From a bacterium (GTDB lineage: Bacteria; Verrucomicrobiota; Verrucomicrobiia; Opitutales; Opitutaceae), in NCBI GenBank assembly GCA_021782105.1, contig JAJXVO010000009.1:1-33949 (forward strand): DNA of 33,949 nucleotides. The letters are read 5' to 3'. Below the pieces are notes generated by a model. That model saw nothing but the letters and a program-made list of their open reading frames with translations, searched no databases and was not told the origin of the DNA. Position 1 is the stretch's first letter. Each line of letters opens with the position of its first letter. Below are positions 23,103-32,385 of this stretch, piece after piece. Both the position numbers and the translations under genes were made by a program.

Positions 23103-25544
23103 TCAGGCTGCGGGGAGCTCCAGGACAAACCGCGCTCCCTTGCCGTGGCCTGCGCTGAACGCCTTCAGCGAGCCGCCCATTTCCCGGGCCGCGAGGGCCG
23201 CATTGTGGAGGCCGTAGCCGTGCCCACCCTTCTTGGTTGTGAACCCGAAATTGAAGATGCGGACGAGATTCTCGGCGGCGATGCCGGGGCCGCTGTCCTC
23301 GACGGATACCTCGACGAAACCACTGCGGCCGGGTTTAACGCTGAGTTGCAGCTGGCGTCCAGCCTCGGGGATATCGTCGAGCGCCTCCTTTGCGTTGCGG
23401 ATCAGATTCGTGAGGATCTGCACGGCCTTTTGCCGCTGGGCGCGCACGTTGGCGGCTTGGGCGTAGTCTCGGGTGACGCGTATGCGGTGGCGCGCGAGCG
23501 AGGCCTCGGCGAGGCGCAGCGAGAACTCAAGCAGCTCAAGGGGGGACAGCTCCTCGACGAGCGTCGATACCTGAGCGTGGCTTTGCTGCGCAGCCACAAT
23601 CTCGTTGATGTGTTCGATCATGCCGCGAAGCCCCTCGAGTTCGGCGAGCATGCGTTTCTGTTCGTCCTCGAGGTGTGTCCCAAGCTGGGCGAGATAGGGG
23701 ACGACTTGGGCGCCTTTCGGATCCTCGGTCAGGAAACGCGGGAGATCGGCTGCGTGTTCGCCGAGCGTCCGCGCGATCCGTGACACGCCGGGGAGTTTGG
23801 AGCCGCGAGCGACGTCGATGGCGAGGCTGCAGGAGGTGTTCACGCTGTTCAGCGCATTGCCGATATTGTGCAGCACACCGGTTGCCATCTCGGCGAGGCC
23901 CGCGAGGCGGGAGGTTTCGACCAACTCCGCGTTGGCTGTCGAGAGTGCGCCTTGCAGGCGGGCGGCGCGCAGGGCGACGGTGAACTGGCGCACCAGATCG
24001 ATCGCGTGGGGAAGAAATTCGGATTCTGCGTCGAACACGGCGATACCAAGGGTCTCCTGCCCGTGCATCATGGGGAGCGTAAGCCACGAGCGTTGCGGAT
24101 GGCTGGCCTCCACGAGTTCCGGGGTGTAGCGGTCGCACGCACGGCCGCCGGCTGCCGCACCGCCCGGCGCAGGGGGCCAATCGTACCAGAGGCCCTGAAC
24201 CTCGCCGCCCTGTTCGTCGGGGGCGTGAAGATAGAGGCCCGCTCGGAGCACGCCCAGATTGCGCAGCGTGCCCTGCATGGTTTCGAGAATGGTTTCCTCT
24301 TTTGCCTCGGCAAATGGCAACTCCCGCAAATGCACTGTCGCGCCGTGGTAGCGAAGCGCCGTGTCGGCCTCCCGTGTATGTTCGTTGAAAAATGCCGTCG
24401 TCAGCAGCCCCAGCGTGGCGTCGATCGTGGCGGGTGGGGCCAGTCTGAGCCCGTCATCCGCCCCGGTTCCGGGCAAATTGTCCCTGGTCAATAGCGAATA
24501 AAGACATCCCGGGCTGAGTCCCATGTGCTCCACTTCAAAAAGCAGCTCGCGCATGGTTTGGAGGAAGGACTCGTGCGAAGTGGAGGTCTGGCCGAGTCTC
24601 GACAGGAGTTCGGCCGCGTGGGCATCGCCGCGGAGCAGGTCGAGCTGACTGTCGTACAAGAAGCGGTGTTCGAGGTAATCGGATCCCAGGGGATGGGACC
24701 GGCTGGAATCGCCCTCGCTTTCCCAAGTGCTCAGCCGCGGGACGAAGCGGGCGGGCACAATGCTTTCGGATTGAAAAGGCTCCTTGCGCACGATGTGGCC
24801 CAGCGCGGTGCAGGCCTGATAGCCCATCTGGTAGAGCCCTGTGTCGAAGGTGGAGAGCGGAGGCTGGCTCCAATGCGTGGCTGGGATGTTGTCGAATCCC
24901 GACACCTCGACATCGGCTCCAGGGCTCAACCCGGCCTCAGCCAGGGCGCGCATGGCCCCGAGGGCGCTCAGGTCGTTTGCTGCGATCAGAGCGGTAAAAT
25001 GCACCTCGCGGGCAAGTGCGTCCCGAACGGCCTCATAGGCCACGCGCTCTGTGTAGTCGCCGCGGATCAGAAGCGATTCTTCGATCTCCAGACCACATTC
25101 GTCGAGTCCCTGCCAGTAGCCGGACATGCGTTCCTCTCCGACGATGCTCTCGACGGTGCCCGCGAGGAAGGCGATGGACCGGTGTCCCTTTTCAACGTGG
25201 CTATGGACGAGCTCGCAGATCGCGTCGGTGTTGTTGTTGATGACGCAGGGAACGTCTCCGACTTTGCGCGCGACCAGGACCACGGGTCGGCCCTCGTCGT
25301 GAAGCTGCTTGCCGAGATTCTGAAGCAATCGACCGGGCGATGCAAAAATGAGGCCATCGCACTCCAAGGCGCTTTTCCCGAAGTAGTTGAAGATCAGGTC
25401 ATCACTGAGAGAGGCGTAGGCCTCTTCGCTGGGAAATCCGAGGATGCGAAGGGAGACTTGCTGGCGGCGTGCGGCGTCGAGGGCGCCGCGGGCTACGAGC
25501 CACATCTTGGGATCCTCGAGTTGGATAACAAGGGCTAGCGTCAT
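23103..25544 (-). CDS. LacI-type sensor domain / GAF-like / histidine kinase fusion
   Basis: The start chosen is the ATG of MTLALVIQLEDPKMW (813 residues). Residues 1 to about 285 match the effector-binding fold of LacI/XylR regulators: KGHRSIAFLAGTVES, ERMSGYWQGLDECGLEIEE, FTALIAANDLSALGAMRAL, VEVSGFDNIPATHWSQPPLST. No helix-turn-helix precedes it and no signal peptide or membrane segment is present, so it should be cytoplasmic. Residues about 310 to 520 hold a GAF-like region (SWLTLPMMHGQETLGIAVFD). The kinase follows with an atypical H-box EMATGVLHNIGNALNSV (His near 557), N-box NLIRNAKEAL (about 713), DSGPGIAAENL and GHGYGLHNAALAAREMGG. No receiver domain or partner regulator gene is seen in the window. 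It is divergent from the ECF sigma gene. Confidence 0.85.
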   Translation of the reverse strand: MTLALVIQLEDPKMWLVARGALDAARRQQVSLRILGFPSEEAYASLSDDLIFNYFGKSALECDGLIFASPGRLLQNLGKQLHDEGRPVVLVARKVGDVPCVINNNTDAICELVHSHVEKGHRSIAFLAGTVESIVGEERMSGYWQGLDECGLEIEESLLIRGDYTERVAYEAVRDALAREVHFTALIAANDLSALGAMRALAEAGLSPGADVEVSGFDNIPATHWSQPPLSTFDTGLYQMGYQACTALGHIVRKEPFQSESIVPARFVPRLSTWESEGDSSRSHPLGSDYLEHRFLYDSQLDLLRGDAHAAELLSRLGQTSTSHESFLQTMRELLFEVEHMGLSPGCLYSLLTRDNLPGTGADDGLRLAPPATIDATLGLLTTAFFNEHTREADTALRYHGATVHLRELPFAEAKEETILETMQGTLRNLGVLRAGLYLHAPDEQGGEVQGLWYDWPPAPGGAAAGGRACDRYTPELVEASHPQRSWLTLPMMHGQETLGIAVFDAESEFLPHAIDLVRQFTVALRAARLQGALSTANAELVETSRLAGLAEMATGVLHNIGNALNSVNTSCSLAIDVARGSKLPGVSRIARTLGEHAADLPRFLTEDPKGAQVVPYLAQLGTHLEDEQKRMLAELEGLRGMIEHINEIVAAQQSHAQVSTLVEELSPLELLEFSLRLAEASLARHRIRVTRDYAQAANVRAQRQKAVQILTNLIRNAKEALDDIPEAGRQLQLSVKPGRSGFVEVSVEDSGPGIAAENLVRIFNFGFTTKKGGHGYGLHNAALAAREMGGSLKAFSAGHGKGARFVLELPAA

Positions 25545-25682
25545 GTGCGGGTGGAGGAGGCGCGTTGGATGCGTCGAAGAACAAAGAAATAAAAAAGACC
25601 GGAAGGCGACGGGGAAATACCCCAAAAAGGAGACGAAAGCCGCTTGCTCTGAGTTGGGATGCGCTTTTACTGAAGATCGACT

Positions 25683-26318
25683 ATGAGCCTAACGAAAGTC
25701 CTGGGGAAAGTGCTCGTCGCTTCGCCGGAACGGCGCCACGAGGCCGATGCCGACTGGTCGCTCGTCCAGAGGGTTCAATCCGGTGATATCGATGCCTACG
25801 ACCACCTGGTACTGAAGTATCGGGAACGCCTCTACGCGGTCATCTACAATCTGGTCGGCAACCGTGAGGATGCGGCGGACCTCACGCAGGATTCCTTCAT
25901 CAAGGCTTTTCAGGCGATCCATCGTTTTGCGGGCGACGCGTCGTTTTTCACCTGGATCTACCGCATCGGCATTAATACGGCGCTTGGTCACCTACGCAAA
26001 AATCGACTACGCAGCTTTTTCAGCATCGATAAGATCGACGAGAATGATCGCCCGTCCGCTGAGGTAATTGCTGCTCTTACGGATGAACGGGGGGCTGATC
26101 GCGACGCATTTGTCGCAGAGCTTCAGGAGAAATTGAACGAAGCGATGCAGAAGTTATCTATCAAGCATCGTACCGTGGTGACCCTTTTCGAAATCGACGG
26201 CCTCAGCCATCAGGAAATTGCCGAGATCATGGATTGTTCGGAGGGCACCGTGCGTTCGCGCCTGCACTACGCAAAGCAGCTGTTGCAGGCTGAGCTCCAA
26301 CCTTACGTCAAACGCTGA
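25683..26318 (+). CDS. ECF RNA polymerase sigma factor
   Basis: This is an extracytoplasmic-function sigma factor of the RpoE-like type, which directs RNA polymerase to a stress or envelope regulon. The 211-residue product has region 2 (YDHLVLKYRERLYAVIYNLVGNREDAADLTQDSFIKAFQAI, then FTWIYRIGINTALGHLRKNR). Region 4 carries the helix-turn-helix LSHQEIAEIMDCSEGTVRSRLHYAKQLL, and the two are joined by a linker of about 45 residues. There is no region 1 or 3. It is coupled by TGATG to a membrane protein that probably serves as its anti-sigma partner. The 138-bp divergent spacer toward the sensor kinase contains a small GGGG-AAATA-CCCC hairpin but no ECF promoter I can defend. Confidence 0.93.
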   Translation: MSLTKVLGKVLVASPERRHEADADWSLVQRVQSGDIDAYDHLVLKYRERLYAVIYNLVGNREDAADLTQDSFIKAFQAIHRFAGDASFFTWIYRIGINTALGHLRKNRLRSFFSIDKIDENDRPSAEVIAALTDERGADRDAFVAELQEKLNEAMQKLSIKHRTVVTLFEIDGLSHQEIAEIMDCSEGTVRSRLHYAKQLLQAELQPYVKR

Positions 26319-27100
26319 TGAACAAGCACGAAGAACCGCGCAGGCCGATTTCAGTCGAAGAACTTCTTCGGGTAAAAAAATCGGAACGTCCGTCAAGCGA
26401 GTTCTGGGGAGCATGGCAGGGCCAGATGCATTCCCGTGTGCGCGACGTGGCGGCGACGAAGCGCTCGTGGTGGAAGGATGCCCTTCCTCGGCTGGGGATC
26501 ACGGTCGCACGCTGGCATGTAGTCGTGGGCGCGACGGCCCTTGCGAGCTTGGTGATCGTTGCGATTGAGGAGTATCAACCTGCCTTGTCGAGTCTTCCGG
26601 TGGCAGCGGCGACGGCATCGGCGAATGATTCTTCGCTAGCTCGCAAGTCTTCGGTTCCCGCGGTTCGGGTTACGGGATCAGGGAGTGTGGCAATGGTGCA
26701 GATGCCGAGGCGCGAGCTTCGGGCGTATGCCCCTGGCGAACTTTCCAGTGCGGTGGCGATGATTCTCACTCCCGAGCGGGGTGCGCCCGTGCATCGTGTC
26801 GAGGCCCGGCTTGGATCTTCGCTTCAGGCGAGTCTTGGGCTTGAGCAGCCGCTCCCAACTTCCGTGGCGATGACTTCCCTTCGCATGGAACAGGAGAAGG
26901 TCGCCTCGATGAAACAGCCCTCCGAGGCGCGCAGGTCGCATTATCTTCGTTATACCTACAATCCGTCGGATCGTTCGGACATGGTTGCTGCGAATCATTC
27001 GATCGGGCCGCTTCCGAGCCGTCTGAATGATGACGAGCTTTACGAGACGGCCTCGAGCCGGATCGGCGCCCGGGGCGACCGCGTCTCGCTGCGCTTCTGA
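26318..27100 (+). CDS. probable single-pass membrane anti-sigma partner
   Basis: The 260-residue product starts in the stop codon of the sigma gene. The cytoplasmic N-terminal part (about residues 1 to 65) contains ISVEELLRVKKSERPSSEFW, a short motif I have seen beside ECF sigma genes in related bacteria (recollection, not a search). One hydrophobic helix follows (WHVVVGATALASLVIVAI, about 67 to 85), then a roughly 175-residue Ser/Ala-rich exported region without recognisable domain. There is no HxxxCxxC zinc anti-sigma motif. The position strongly suggests that it restrains the sigma factor. An alternative is an unrelated envelope protein of the same operon. It ends 7 bp before the converging gene. 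Confidence 0.6.
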   Translation: MNKHEEPRRPISVEELLRVKKSERPSSEFWGAWQGQMHSRVRDVAATKRSWWKDALPRLGITVARWHVVVGATALASLVIVAIEEYQPALSSLPVAAATASANDSSLARKSSVPAVRVTGSGSVAMVQMPRRELRAYAPGELSSAVAMILTPERGAPVHRVEARLGSSLQASLGLEQPLPTSVAMTSLRMEQEKVASMKQPSEARRSHYLRYTYNPSDRSDMVAANHSIGPLPSRLNDDELYETASSRIGARGDRVSLRF

Positions 27101-27107
27101 GCCTGGT

Positions 27108-27800
27108 TCAGGCGGTGCGGGTGCGCCGCATCAGGTGGGCGAGGATGAGCGTGAAGAACACGAGCACGAGATTCTGCATGGGCAGCTGCAGGGCGGGAGG
27201 CAGCGAATAGATGATCGTCACCGCGGGCAGCCAGACGGCCAGGTTAGAGATCAACGGGGTGAGCACGCGACGGCTGTACCAGCGTCCGGAGCGGAGATCG
27301 GCGGAGACGGCTGACAAGCTGAATCCCGATTCGCACCAGAAATAGACGAGGACGGTCAGGGGAATTGCCAGGATCGGGCTGTAGAGGAATTGATCGGCGA
27401 GCGTCTTGAGGGCGACGGTGGCGGGGCTGTGTCCCTGGCCGAAGAGGATTCCGACCGTGCGATACCACAGATCGACCTCTATGCCCTTGTAGGCCCAGAA
27501 GGCGGTGATGACGGAGCCGAAAGCGACGGAGGGTCGATATGCGGCGGGGGCAAAGGTGCGGAGGTAGAGAAAGGGGATCACGCCGCCGCAGAGGGCGGTG
27601 GAGACCATGCTGAAGCGCAGGCCGGTGGCGGAGCGAAATTCGGCCAGGTGTTCGAGGGCCTGGTTGACCGGCGGGGAGAAGTAGAAGGCGTAGACAATTG
27701 CGAGGGCGGAGGCCTGAAGGATGAGTCCGGGCACGAGATTGGCCCGCGCGGCGTGGAGGCCTTCGCGAAGGGCGTTGGTGAGGGTTCTCGACAAGGACAC
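27108..27800 (-). CDS. small polytopic membrane protein, Mpv17/PMP22-like
   Basis: The tracked ORF begins inside the upstream reductase gene and reads through its terminator, so a downstream start is needed. The first in-frame start after the terminator is GTG at 27800, giving (M)SLSRTLTNALREGLHAARA and 230 residues. Four or five hydrophobic segments are present. The C-terminal half, VALKTLADQFLYSPI ... ISNLAVWLPAVTIIYSLP ... LPMQNLVLVFFTLILAHL, follows the order of Mpv17/PMP22 proteins (LK..DQ...P, then N...WPAVQ..NF..VP, then N/Q L..V.W...L). Similarity was judged by eye. The role is unknown. It is separated from the reductase by a terminator and faces the sigma operon. Confidence 0.6.
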   Translation of the reverse strand: MSLSRTLTNALREGLHAARANLVPGLILQASALAIVYAFYFSPPVNQALEHLAEFRSATGLRFSMVSTALCGGVIPFLYLRTFAPAAYRPSVAFGSVITAFWAYKGIEVDLWYRTVGILFGQGHSPATVALKTLADQFLYSPILAIPLTVLVYFWCESGFSLSAVSADLRSGRWYSRRVLTPLISNLAVWLPAVTIIYSLPPALQLPMQNLVLVFFTLILAHLMRRTRTA

Positions 27801-27862: not shown

Positions 27863-27895
27863 AAAAAAGGCCGGCCTCTCTACAGGGCCGGCCTT
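27863..27895 (-). terminator. intrinsic terminator after the ribonucleotide reductase
   Basis: Read on the minus strand, AAGGCCGGCC and GGCCGGCCTT form a 10-bp stem around a 9-base loop. It is followed by TTTT and GT. It lies about 20 bases after the reductase stop, which fits termination of that gene. The downstream membrane protein then needs its own promoter or read-through. Confidence 0.88.
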
Positions 27896-27916: not shown

Positions 27917-30412
27917 TCAGCCCGAGTGGATGATCTCGCAGGCGCCGCCGGCGCAGGCGACGGCCTCCTTGAGTTTGGTCTCGTCGGACTTCTCGCTGAG
28001 CTGCGTGTAGTCGATTTCGACATACTTCAGGCGGTTCCACTTCACGATATCGTCCTCGGTGGTGACCTCCTCGCGGGGGGCCTGTGCGTAGCGCTTGTCG
28101 CCGTCGTGGGCGAGCAGCGAGATGCCTGTGAAGAATTCGCGATTAGTCCAGATGAAGCTGCCGACCTGGTCCCACTCGTCTGGGCGCACCGTGCAGGTGT
28201 TGGATACGTTGTGGTGGAGGCCGGGGGAGCGGCTTTCATCGGCGGTGCCGATCTGGACCCAGTGCTGCTGAACAAGCTTTACGAACTCGAGGAAATCGAG
28301 GGCGGAGAGTTCGTCGCGGAGGATGGCTTCCTTGGGGGCTTCCACGGGGAAGGTGATGACATCGTCGGCATCCGGGTTATAGACCGAGGATTCGGTCATG
28401 TGCGGATTGTTGTTCCGGAAGTGCAGGTAGACCGGATCCTTTCGGTTGGCCTGGACGCGGCGGAAGTAGCGGCGGGCGTGGTGCGGGTGGATGCCGGAGC
28501 CGGCGCCGAGGAGGAGGGACGCGGTGCCTTCCGGTTTGACGCAGGTGAGGCGGGCCGCGGAGCGGATGCCGAGGAGGTGGGCGACGAGGCAGTTGGCGAC
28601 GCGCACGAGGAGGGCGCCGCGTTCGAGGGTGGCCGGGTTAAAGAGCACCTCCGGGTTGTCCATCATGCCGCAGATGGAGACGCCCAGGAGGGCGTCGCGT
28701 TCATTGAGGAAGCGGGTGACGGGCCCGAGGTAGGGCATCTTCGTGTAGGCGGCCTGGAGGGTGCCGATGATGGCGGCGTGCAGGCAGGCGTCGAGGAAGA
28801 GCTCATCGTTGGTGGCGATGGCACCATTGATCGTGGTGAGGTTGCACATCTGCCAGCCGGACAGGCGGGTGTCGGGTCCGAGTTCGCCCTCGTAGCCGAT
28901 GGAGCGGAGATGTTGGGCGTCCTGTTCGGAGATGGGGCCCTGGACGACGGGGTGCAGGCCGATTTCGCAGCAGGGATTGCAGCCGAACTCGAGGTCGTTG
29001 GTGAAGTAGAAGCCGGGCTCTCCGAATTCCTTCTGGGCCTGGAAAAGCTTGCGGAAAGTCTCCTCGTCGTTGGAGCCGCGCAGGATGATTGCGGAGTTGT
29101 TGGAGGCGGAACGCTGCGGGTGCTTGGCGAACCAGTCGCCTGTCTTGGCGGTCATCATCTCCTCATCGTCGGAGGAGAAAAGGCAGATCGTCGCCGAGCG
29201 GCGGATACCGCCGGAGAGCACGGAGCGTGCGACATGCATGCAGATGTCGTAGACCTCGATGGGCCGGAGCTTGCGGCCGCCGGCGCCGGCGAGGATACGC
29301 TCGGTTTCAGCGAGGGCCTGCTTGAAGGGGAGGTGGCCGGGGGCCTTGCCGCCGGAGGTTTTGAGCGCACTGCCGCGCGGGCGGATCTTGGAGAAATTGA
29401 ATTCGACCTTGTAGCCCTCGATGTAGCTCTTGAAGAGCTCGATGAGGCCGTCCGACCAGCCCTCGATGGTATCGGCGACCTCGAAATGCTTGACGGTGAG
29501 GTCGAGTTCCCGGCCGCGGACGGGAAGGGAGGGCAGGCGGCCGACGTGTTGCTTCTGGACGGAGAAGCCGCAACCGGTGCCGGAGAGCAGGAGGAAATAG
29601 TATTCGCCAAAAAACTCCACGCGGTCGGCTGGGCTGTAGGCGCAGTTGAACATGCGCGAATGGTTGCGGAGGATCGCGATGCCGCCGAACTGCAGCGAGC
29701 GCATCGAGGGGAGGACCTTGCGGGCGCGGACGGCGTCGAAGGAGCGGGTGATCAGGTTGCCCAGGGACTGTCCGAGGAGCCACTCGCCGATGCGCTGGCG
29801 GTCGGCGCCGGTTATGAGGCTGGAGAGTTCGGGCGGGAGGATCTCGGGGATCTTGGTGTCGAGTTTGTCGTAGAAGTGGTCGAGGTGCATCTGGGCTACG
29901 CGGGCGACGGCCTCACCATAGGTTTCGCGGCGCAGGAGCTCGGGGCGGTAGCGGGCGTACTTGGAAACGGCGATGTAATCGGCGAGGCCGTTGTCCTCGT
30001 ACTTGGCGAGGCGGCGCTCGGCCTGACGCTGGCGGTAAATGATGTAGCTCTTGGCGACCTCGAGTTCGCTCTCGGTGGCGATGGCTTTTTCGACGATGTC
30101 CTGGATCTGCTCGATCGAGGGGTAGCGATTGGCGCGGTAGACGAGTTCGATCATCTGCTTGGCGCGCTCGGTGATCGCCATGGCCTTCATGAAGGTGGCG
30201 GTGTCGACGCCGTAACGTTTGGTGACGTCGTCGCGGTCGGGATTGGGGGCGCCATTGGTCTGGACGTCGTAGTAGGCGAGTACGATGGCGCGCGTGATTT
30301 TGGCGGCGTCCCAGGGAACGAGACGGCCATCACGTTTGACGACGAGCCGCTCGCGAGGAGCGGAGGGAGGAGCGAAACGACGGAGGAGGGCGGATGCTGG
30401 AGAGGCGTTCAT
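27917..30412 (-). CDS. adenosylcobalamin-dependent (class II) ribonucleotide reductase
   Basis: The enzyme makes deoxyribonucleotides using the adenosylcobalamin radical and needs no oxygen. The 831-residue product has an N-terminal ATP-cone (RLVVKRDGRLVPWDAAKITRAI..., about residues 22 to 120) that provides allosteric dATP/ATP control. The catalytic barrel contains MRSLQFGG, MFNCAYS (Cys near 257), LLSGTGCGFSVQ, SGGIRRSATICLF, and NPCCEIGLHP near residue 480, which supplies the radical-site Cys and Glu. VKPEGTASLLLGAGSGIHPHHARRYFRR comes later, and the C-terminus has CAGGAC, probably the redox-active cysteine pair. These residues fit the monomeric RTPR-like branch of class II. No small-subunit or nrdG gene is adjacent. 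Two NrdR-like boxes precede it. Confidence 0.9.
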   Translation of the reverse strand: MNASPASALLRRFAPPSAPRERLVVKRDGRLVPWDAAKITRAIVLAYYDVQTNGAPNPDRDDVTKRYGVDTATFMKAMAITERAKQMIELVYRANRYPSIEQIQDIVEKAIATESELEVAKSYIIYRQRQAERRLAKYEDNGLADYIAVSKYARYRPELLRRETYGEAVARVAQMHLDHFYDKLDTKIPEILPPELSSLITGADRQRIGEWLLGQSLGNLITRSFDAVRARKVLPSMRSLQFGGIAILRNHSRMFNCAYSPADRVEFFGEYYFLLLSGTGCGFSVQKQHVGRLPSLPVRGRELDLTVKHFEVADTIEGWSDGLIELFKSYIEGYKVEFNFSKIRPRGSALKTSGGKAPGHLPFKQALAETERILAGAGGRKLRPIEVYDICMHVARSVLSGGIRRSATICLFSSDDEEMMTAKTGDWFAKHPQRSASNNSAIILRGSNDEETFRKLFQAQKEFGEPGFYFTNDLEFGCNPCCEIGLHPVVQGPISEQDAQHLRSIGYEGELGPDTRLSGWQMCNLTTINGAIATNDELFLDACLHAAIIGTLQAAYTKMPYLGPVTRFLNERDALLGVSICGMMDNPEVLFNPATLERGALLVRVANCLVAHLLGIRSAARLTCVKPEGTASLLLGAGSGIHPHHARRYFRRVQANRKDPVYLHFRNNNPHMTESSVYNPDADDVITFPVEAPKEAILRDELSALDFLEFVKLVQQHWVQIGTADESRSPGLHHNVSNTCTVRPDEWDQVGSFIWTNREFFTGISLLAHDGDKRYAQAPREEVTTEDDIVKWNRLKYVEIDYTQLSEKSDETKLKEAVACAGGACEIIHSG

Positions 30413-30586: not shown

Positions 30587-30830
30587 TAAACGCTCATTTG
30601 TCTCTGATGCCATGGGAGGGAGGGCTGAAAAAGGGCTTTAGAGGTTCTAATTCTGAGGCAAAAAATGGGTCGAAATCGAGTCACGAAAGGGGGGTGGAGG
30701 GCAAGCGGGAGTTTGTAACAACTTACTCTCCGGCGGTCGTGAATAACCGGGGTTTGGCGGGGTTTTGTTTCGACCTGCTCGGGGCGGCTGGGGCATAAAA
30801 GTGACACGCCGACCGAACCAGCGCGCCGAC
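30587..30830. other. divergent intergenic region upstream of the FAH-family gene
   Basis: This 244-bp stretch completes the 418-bp gap between the reductase start and the FAH-family gene. It contains purine-rich runs (ggggggtggagggc) and no coding region I can support; the tracked 88-residue ORF here resembles nothing known. No promoter for the + strand genes could be placed with confidence. Confidence 0.4.
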
Positions 30831-31754
30831 ATGCGTTTTGCAACCATTTTGCCCCGTGCGAGCGTGGAACCCGTGGCTGTGGCCTCGGCGCCGGATGGGA
30901 CGTGGATTGAGCTGGCGGCGCTCACGTTGCGGCGCGAGCGGCGTCTGGAGGAGACGTTGCCATGGGTGATGAGCCATTTGGAGCAATTGAGGGAGCGAGC
31001 GGCGGGCTGGAGGGGGCCTCGGTATCGGGAGAGTGAATTCGAGTTTCTTCCGCCGGTGGTGCGGCCGGCGGCGTTTCGGGATTTCGACGCTTTCGAGGAA
31101 CACGTGGGCGCGGTGCGTCGGAGGGTCGGGCAGGTGATCCCCGGAGCCTGGTACGAGGCGCCGGCGTTTGCCTTCGCGAACCGGCTGGCGCTGGTGGGGC
31201 ATGGGGCGAGCGTGCGGTACCCGGCGGAGGCCCGGGAGCTTGATTTCGGGCTGGCGCTCGGGATTGTGATCGGGCGGCGGGGCAGGGACATCTCGCCCGA
31301 GCGGGCCTGGGAGCATGTGGCGGGGTTCACGATCGTGAACGACCTGAGCGCGCGAGACCTCGAGCAACGCGCGCTGCCTGCGGGCCTGGGGCCCTCGAAG
31401 GGCAAGGACTTTGCGACGGCGGTCGGACCCTGGCTCGTGCTTCGCAGGGAGCTGGAGGCGAGAATCGAGGGCGAGCGTATCCATCTTAAAATGACCGCAC
31501 GGATGAACGGCGCGGTGGTGGGCGGCGGCTCGACCGGGAGCCTTTACCACACCGTGCCGCGGATGATTTCGCACGCCTCTCAGGACGCCGAGCTGTTCCC
31601 GGGCGACCTGTTAAGCACCGGGGCTGTGGGCGGGGGTTGCCTGCTCGAGGCCGGGGCGAACGGCGAGGGATGGCTGAAGGCGGGGGACGAGGTGGAGCTG
31701 GAGGTGGAGTGTATTGGAACTTTGGCGACGCGGGTCGCCGGGCGTGCCGGCTGA
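30831..31754 (+). CDS. fumarylacetoacetate hydrolase family protein
   Basis: The FAH family contains metal-dependent C–C bond hydrolases and related isomerases/decarboxylases acting on small oxo-acids. The start ATG gives MRFATILPRASVEPVAVASA and 307 residues; the tracked upstream residues are spacer. The catalytic FAH domain, from about residue 90, includes ELDFGLALGIVIGRRGRDIS (metal-ligand Glu), GFTIVNDLSARDLE, PSKGKDFATAVGPWLV and the C-terminal PGDLLSTGAVGGGC segment. The N-terminal 90 residues form the small accessory domain seen in longer members. It is 25 bp upstream of a flavin-reductase-like gene, a pairing known from aromatic-acid (homogentisate-type) degradation gene sets. The substrate is not certain. 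Confidence 0.87.
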   Translation: MRFATILPRASVEPVAVASAPDGTWIELAALTLRRERRLEETLPWVMSHLEQLRERAAGWRGPRYRESEFEFLPPVVRPAAFRDFDAFEEHVGAVRRRVGQVIPGAWYEAPAFAFANRLALVGHGASVRYPAEARELDFGLALGIVIGRRGRDISPERAWEHVAGFTIVNDLSARDLEQRALPAGLGPSKGKDFATAVGPWLVLRRELEARIEGERIHLKMTARMNGAVVGGGSTGSLYHTVPRMISHASQDAELFPGDLLSTGAVGGGCLLEAGANGEGWLKAGDEVELEVECIGTLATRVAGRAG

Positions 31755-31779
31755 GGTGCGGGCGGCGGACTTTCAACTC

Positions 31780-32385
31780 ATGACGATCGATTTTGCCAAC
31801 CTTCCGCCGCGCAGCGCGTACGCTTGGATGAGCTCCCTGATCATGCCGAGGCCCGTGGCCTGGGTGTCGACCCTTTCGCCGGAGGGCGCGACCAACCTCG
31901 CGCCGTTCTCGTTTTTCTCGGGGGTGACGGCGAATCCGCCGACGCTGATGTTCGTGCCGGTGAACGACCGTGAGGGCAGGCCGAAGCACACGTTGCGGAA
32001 CATCGAACTAGTCCCGGAATTCGTGGTGAACGTCGTGCCGCAGCACCTGGCCGCGGTGATGAACGCGTGTTCGGCTCCGCTGCCCTACGGCGAGAGCGAG
32101 TTTGGCGCCTTTGGTGTGGGGGCGGCCCCCAGCTTGCGCGTGCGGCCTCCGCGGGTGCAGGATGCGCCGGCGGCCTTCGAATGTTGCCTTCACCAGATCG
32201 TGCGGGTGGGCGAGGGACCCATGGCGGGAAACATCGTCATCGGCCGGATACTTGCCGTGCACGTGCTTGATTCGGTCCTGGGCGAAGAGGGCCTGCCCGA
32301 CCCGGCGAAACTGGATCTGATAGGTCGCCTGGGTGGTGACGGCTATACGACGACCCGTGATCGGTTCGATTTGGAAAGGCCTTAG
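31780..32385 (+). CDS. flavin reductase-like domain protein
   Basis: This is an FMN-binding split-barrel protein of the flavoredoxin/flavin-reductase-like family. The start ATG gives MTIDFANLPPRSAYAWMSSL and 201 residues; the tracked ORF includes upstream spacer. Typical segments are the FMN site IMPRPVAWVSTLSPEGATNLAPFSFFSGVTANPPTLMF, KHTLRNIELVPEFVVNVV and the later ECCLHQIVRVGEGPMAGNIVIGRI, which lies at the dimer interface. Length is normal for the family. It lies in one transcription unit with the FAH-family gene and may supply reduced flavin to an oxygenase, but none is in view. A candidate terminator is found about 150 bp downstream. Confidence 0.86.
   Translation: MTIDFANLPPRSAYAWMSSLIMPRPVAWVSTLSPEGATNLAPFSFFSGVTANPPTLMFVPVNDREGRPKHTLRNIELVPEFVVNVVPQHLAAVMNACSAPLPYGESEFGAFGVGAAPSLRVRPPRVQDAPAAFECCLHQIVRVGEGPMAGNIVIGRILAVHVLDSVLGEEGLPDPAKLDLIGRLGGDGYTTTRDRFDLERP

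Follow-up and report, generated by a model that had tools for sequence, protein, structure and literature searches.

Mpv17-like membrane proteins of Verrucomicrobiota and their linkage to dsbD in Opitutaceae

The 33,949-nucleotide stretch of Opitutaceae DNA analysed here (hereafter the window) carries a gene for a polytopic membrane protein that, judged from profile comparisons, is very probably a distant homologue of the Mpv17/PMP22/Sym1 family, and whose relatives in Opitutaceae recurrently stand next to dsbD. Our overall explanation, in which this homologue would act as an inner-membrane channel or gate for small solutes and be coupled to DsbD in Opitutaceae, has in our estimate a probability of about 45%. 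MPV17 is a human disease gene with a mitochondrial product, the loss of which causes an mtDNA depletion disease; it is usually treated as a eukaryotic, organellar protein, and its function in eukaryotes is itself disputed. The view taken in a first-pass annotation of this DNA, that Mpv17 proteins are known mainly from mitochondria and peroxisomes, holds for the literature that we searched, where no paper on bacterial Mpv17 proteins was found (most subscription papers and TCDB lay outside the search, and earlier notice is possible). The string 'MpV17', which occurs together with Verrucomicrobia in PMC4602308, proved misleading: it is the name of a Micromonas virus fused to a reference number.

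Gene and genomic context

The Mpv17-like gene occupies positions 27108–27800 on the minus strand, starts with GTG and encodes 230 amino acids. It is a real gene, because GC content by codon position in its frame is of the coding type (0.60/0.48/0.84, similar to 0.63/0.43/0.87 in the gene upstream) and homologues are found in 25 of the 61 genomes sampled from its own family, Opitutaceae. The upstream gene (27917–30412, minus strand) encodes a ribonucleotide reductase (RNR) with an ATP cone and barrel, for which the best full-length Pfam/NCBIfam model is the adenosylcobalamin (B12)-dependent RTPR. As the first-pass annotation had described, the two genes adjoin on the same strand with a terminator-like hairpin between them (27867–27895, minus strand). 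This GC-rich hairpin, followed by six T residues, has a predicted folding energy of −23 kcal/mol (z −2.7; 3 of 200 shuffles equally stable), and it is absent from the list of a consensus terminator scan, probably because of the loop-size limit of that scan.

Two plus-strand genes converge on the Mpv17-like gene from the other side. An ECF sigma factor gene (25683–26318) is directly followed by a gene for a 260 aa protein (26318–27100) that has no Pfam match and is presumably the anti-sigma factor of the adjoining ECF sigma factor. Further away, 23103–25625 (minus strand) encodes an unusual sensor kinase that combines a LacI-type sugar-binding domain with GAF and histidine-kinase ATPase domains in one protein and has no Pfam match to a DNA-binding domain. 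On the far side of the RNR gene, 30765–32385 (plus strand) holds a fumarylacetoacetate hydrolase-family gene and then a flavin-reductase-like gene; three other loci also have a gene of the latter type in the vicinity of the Mpv17-like gene, with varying distance and orientation.

Conserved residues and predicted structure

The motifs that had led the first-pass annotation to Mpv17 are all present in the protein, in the order ALKTLADQFLYSP, then N-LAVWLPAVTIIYSLP, then QNLVLVFFTLIL. On the alignment evidence this pattern is no chance string, because homologues recur among the Opitutaceae genomes and because residues are invariant in an alignment of 63 members. The segment KTLADQFLYSP (residues 132–142; 27375–27407, minus strand) is the counterpart of the K/R-x3-DQ....P motif in the third Mpv17 helix. 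Within the bacterial family K132 and D136 are kept in 63/63 members, Q137 in 53/63 and P142 in 38/63; the K132-x3-D136-Q137 block aligns with R94-x3-D98-Q99 of yeast Sym1, and P142 with Sym1 P104. Sym1 P104L is equivalent to human P98L, a disease mutation (PMC6166979). The C-terminal Mpv17_PMP22-like region, delimited by alignment to PF04117, spans residues 178–230 (27111–27269, minus strand) and reads N-x3-W-x-P...IYxLPxxLQ...NLV...F/W. Eight residues (G121, K132, D136, W190, P192, P201, L204 and Q205) are invariant both in the first 41 members collected and in all 63. No cysteine is invariant across the 63 members, the best column being C214 (49/63; V in the window protein), and redox coupling via conserved cysteines was rejected on this ground.

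The AlphaFold2 model of the window protein is all helical (pLDDT 93.8, pTM 0.89), with long helices at residues 22–41, 61–83, 92–120, 126–157, 174–197 and 202–229. Judged by model and hydropathy together, the 230 aa contain about six helices that are long and hydrophobic, compared with the four spans and ~20 kDa typical of Mpv17/PMP22; the additional N-terminal hydrophobic helix (residues 22–41) precedes the Sym1-aligned region.

Kinship with Mpv17/PMP22

The window protein on its own scores 9.1 bits against PF04117 (E=1.8), below the curated cut-off of 27 bits, with model positions 18–61 aligned to residues 178–220, the expected C-terminal region. When 41 orthologues were scanned singly, 34 matched PF04117 at E<=1; 12 of the 41 did so at E<=0.01, and the lowest E-value was 7.3e-7. 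PF04117 is the sole Pfam family that recurs among them, and the bacterial family has no recurring NCBIfam model. A PF04117 search of 388 Verrucomicrobiota genomes gave 22 matches, with four genomes over the cut-off, and the four proteins concerned are members of the window family by its own profile. As a eukaryotic reference we used a yeast Sym1 sequence (197 aa), checked by its score of 98 bits against PF04117 and by its agreement with PMC6166979 at six residues (G24, R51, P104, A168, N172, S176). The bacterial profile ranks Sym1 top among non-members (19.6 bits, E=5e-5; best of 200 shuffles 7.8 bits). Profile–profile alignment by hhalign (63 members) matches Sym1 with a probability of 90.1 and E=1.6e-6 over 156 columns, profile columns 53–221 being aligned to Sym1 11–179; the score is 45.0, and none of 100 shuffles exceeded 22.2. 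The match strengthens when two planctomycete Mpv17 domains are added to Sym1 (probability 96.6, E=5.8e-10). A phmmer search of 4756 ORFs with Sym1 as the single query recovered L073, a planctomycete member of the family, at E=5.2e-8. Alignment of the K/R-x3-DQ block with Sym1 is independent of the PF04117 model, which does not cover this block.

The opposing reading is that the similarity arose by convergence and that the window protein comes from an unrelated, uncharacterized polytopic membrane family. The insignificance of its own Pfam score would fit this, as would the result of Foldseek, which returned no match for the model at E<=0.001 in PDB and BFVD, although neither library is known to include an Mpv17-type structure; the bacterial family profile likewise matched no PDB sequence. 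Against convergence stand the PF04117 matches of the orthologues, the four Verrucomicrobiota genomes over the cut-off, the hhalign and phmmer matches to Sym1, and the far lower scores of shuffled and reversed Sym1, and we consider it very improbable. The orthologue matches, the shuffle-controlled profile–profile alignment and the direct pairwise match therefore argue for kinship at the superfamily level. The resemblance first proposed for this protein thus holds at that level, whereas membership in PF04117 does not follow from its own score; for that reason we do not file it there and assign it, by sequence, to a bacterial sister family that belongs to the Mpv17 superfamily.

Distribution of the bacterial family

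This sister family is sparse in Verrucomicrobiota and Planctomycetota and rare in Spirochaetota and Myxococcota. Homologues were found in 39/195 Verrucomicrobiota genomes sampled, and in 11/199, 3/149 and 1/189 genomes of the Planctomycetota, Spirochaetota and Myxococcota samples, respectively, each of these three counts including the seed genome. In a maximum-likelihood tree of the 63 members, the window protein falls among those from Opitutaceae. A search of plasmids returned no match, and in viral contigs the Sym1 patterns matched nothing, while the DNA pattern gave two chance matches. One match in Desulfotomaculaceae (L046) was dropped, as the whole-genome profile search was empty there.

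Some planctomycetes carry two Mpv17-like copies (L066/L076 in G855 and L073/L077 in G808), and the G855 pair is adjacent on the same strand. In each of two loci, L067 (G916) and G977:C316, the matched region is interrupted by a single in-frame stop codon (TAA and TGA, respectively); these may represent pseudogenes or sequencing errors. On a contig titled Akkermansia muciniphila (CAMDHP010000005.1), the Mpv17-like protein and its flanking genes group with Opitutaceae; the contig is probably a mislabelled bin.

Linkage to dsbD

The recurrent neighbour of the Mpv17-like gene is dsbD, encoding a protein with DsbD_N, DsbD_TM and thioredoxin domains, which lies downstream on the same strand. The gaps between the two genes are often as short as 4–91 bp, suggesting an operon. 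By whole-genome coordinates, 24 Opitutaceae genomes have both genes; dsbD immediately follows the Mpv17-like gene in 11 of them, in the same orientation, and 13 have the two genes co-oriented and no more than 2 kb apart. This arrangement persists among orthologues that are only about 45–60% identical to the window protein, which suggests selection for linkage, and the position of the Mpv17-like gene directly upstream of dsbD points to a role in envelope redox homeostasis. Among the loci surveyed outside Opitutaceae, no DsbD was found in the flanks, and the linkage is confined to that family. The genome from which the window comes gave no DsbD match either (the assembly is 91% complete, leaving absence unproven, and two congeners have DsbD). 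Since the linkage is restricted to Opitutaceae and this genome lacks a match, redox coupling of the Mpv17-like protein cannot be general.

Possible function

Pxmp2 and MPV17 behave as channels with regulated opening. By analogy with them, we propose that the bacterial protein, all helical and polytopic, would reside in the inner membrane and form a channel or gate that passes small solutes and is normally closed. Its Mpv17-type helices, in the C-terminal two thirds, bear the invariant K132/D136 pair and the WxP...P region, and such a Lys/Asp pair with proline-rich helices is compatible with a gated pore. Through its opening the cell could regulate its membrane potential or the balance of solutes, and in Opitutaceae the channel may be coupled to the thiol-disulfide state of the envelope via co-expression with DsbD. 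Channel formation has been reported for Pxmp2 (PMC2662417), and we hold the channel mechanism in the bacterial protein to be a tentative proposal, somewhat short of even odds.

Other functional readings share parts of this evidence. It is somewhat unlikely, in our view, that the protein is an Mpv17-type solute channel without any redox role, serving for instance for the relief of osmotic pressure or membrane potential, and that its linkage to dsbD in Opitutaceae is a mere operon convenience; the patchy distribution and the varied neighbours outside Opitutaceae would be expected for such a stress-relief accessory gene, but the survival of the linkage at 45–60% identity, with the selection that it suggests, speaks against convenience. 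The same immediate linkage and operon-like gaps could mean instead that the Mpv17 homologue forms no channel but partners DsbD, or other envelope proteins, in a structural or assembly role, stabilizing or regulating electron transfer to periplasmic thiols. Precedents for a role of this kind are the reported protection of SLC25A10 from degradation by MPV17 (PMC11476822) and the failure of Sym1 disease variants to join a high-molecular-weight complex (PMC6166979). However, most loci outside Opitutaceae have no dsbD nearby, 34 of the 58 dsbD-bearing Opitutaceae genomes have no Mpv17-like gene, and the family has no invariant cysteine, and we regard such a partnership as unlikely.

The least credible of these readings ties the protein to nucleotide supply. 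The first-pass annotation had set the nucleotide-related role of organellar Mpv17 beside the adjacent RNR gene, and a protein supplying nucleotides or precursors in functional connection with that RNR would fit both the same-strand adjacency in the window and the mitochondrial deoxynucleotide insufficiency that MPV17 loss is reported to cause (PMC4711891). This link was not borne out by a neighbourhood survey of 35 loci with flanks (window included): an RNR gene lies near the Mpv17-like gene at just one of the 34 other loci, where it is on the opposite strand with one gene between. In the window the terminator-like hairpin separates the two genes, and a free-living bacterium makes its dNTPs in the same compartment as its DNA. 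The RNR adjacency is incidental, the RNR is probably functionally unlinked to the Mpv17-like gene, and a nucleotide-supply role appears highly improbable. The DsbD-coupled channel is the reading that we prefer.

Significance and comparison with known systems

A branch of the superfamily in bacteria, with an operon partner that recurs, would offer a genetically simple, single-compartment setting in which to ask what the Mpv17 fold does, and it would broaden the range of sequences available for predicting structure. Mutagenesis could be aimed directly at the invariant K/D pair and at the P142/P98 site, and with the dsbD linkage the focus moves away from the supply of nucleotides and towards redox and membrane homeostasis. 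A wider proposition, speculative and in our judgement improbable, is that bacteria hold an old and diverse Mpv17 superfamily (the window family, another one in Verrucomicrobiota and the canonical domains of one planctomycete), that the organellar Mpv17/PMP22 proteins descend from or share a bacterial ancestor with it, and that its ancestral role, as the dsbD linkage might indicate, was envelope redox or membrane-potential homeostasis and not nucleotide import.

The canonical domains came from a PF04117 search of Planctomycetota, which found two tandem intronless genes on contig C388 of genome G847 (locus L133; 6513–7907 and 8099–9793, minus strand; 48.5 and 37.8 bits). They adjoin asparagine synthase and glycosyltransferase genes, and the contig therefore looks bacterial and not like eukaryotic contamination. 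Like the window family, these proteins have W-x-P where Sym1 has W-P; unlike it, they exceed the PF04117 cut-off with a full Mpv17 domain, are far nearer to Sym1 (phmmer 2.5e-15) and bear a long Gly/Ala-rich N-terminal extension. In PDB a stretch of this extension has a weak similarity to Tse5 (E=0.057), possibly a chance low-complexity match. The second divergent Verrucomicrobiota family (L100–L123, f19/f38) occurs in 34/120 genomes of the order and shows the motif FWIPAHTVTF.LPP.YRVLMSA. It resembles the window family in its weak PF04117 matches (to 9.5e-5) and aligns with it by hhalign (probability 81, E=1.2e-5), but it is without the K-x3-DQ block and hhalign gives no match to Sym1, and its kinship is less certain.

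DsbD (PF11412 + PF02683 + thioredoxin) is a genomic partner in Opitutaceae and is not homologous to the Mpv17-like protein. The closest known system is the Mpv17/PMP22 family itself (PF04117; yeast Sym1, human MPV17, PXMP2 and fungal Pex37/Wsc), which has in common with the bacterial protein the K/R-x3-DQ....P block and, in the same order over 122–156 aligned columns, the C-terminal core N-x3-W-(x)-P...LxP...N-V-x3-W/F. The window protein differs in its length (230 aa versus 197 aa in Sym1), in having W-x-P in place of W-P, and in the additional hydrophobic helix at its N-terminus, where N21..P24 is conserved, and its family is bacterial whereas Mpv17/PMP22 proteins are organellar.
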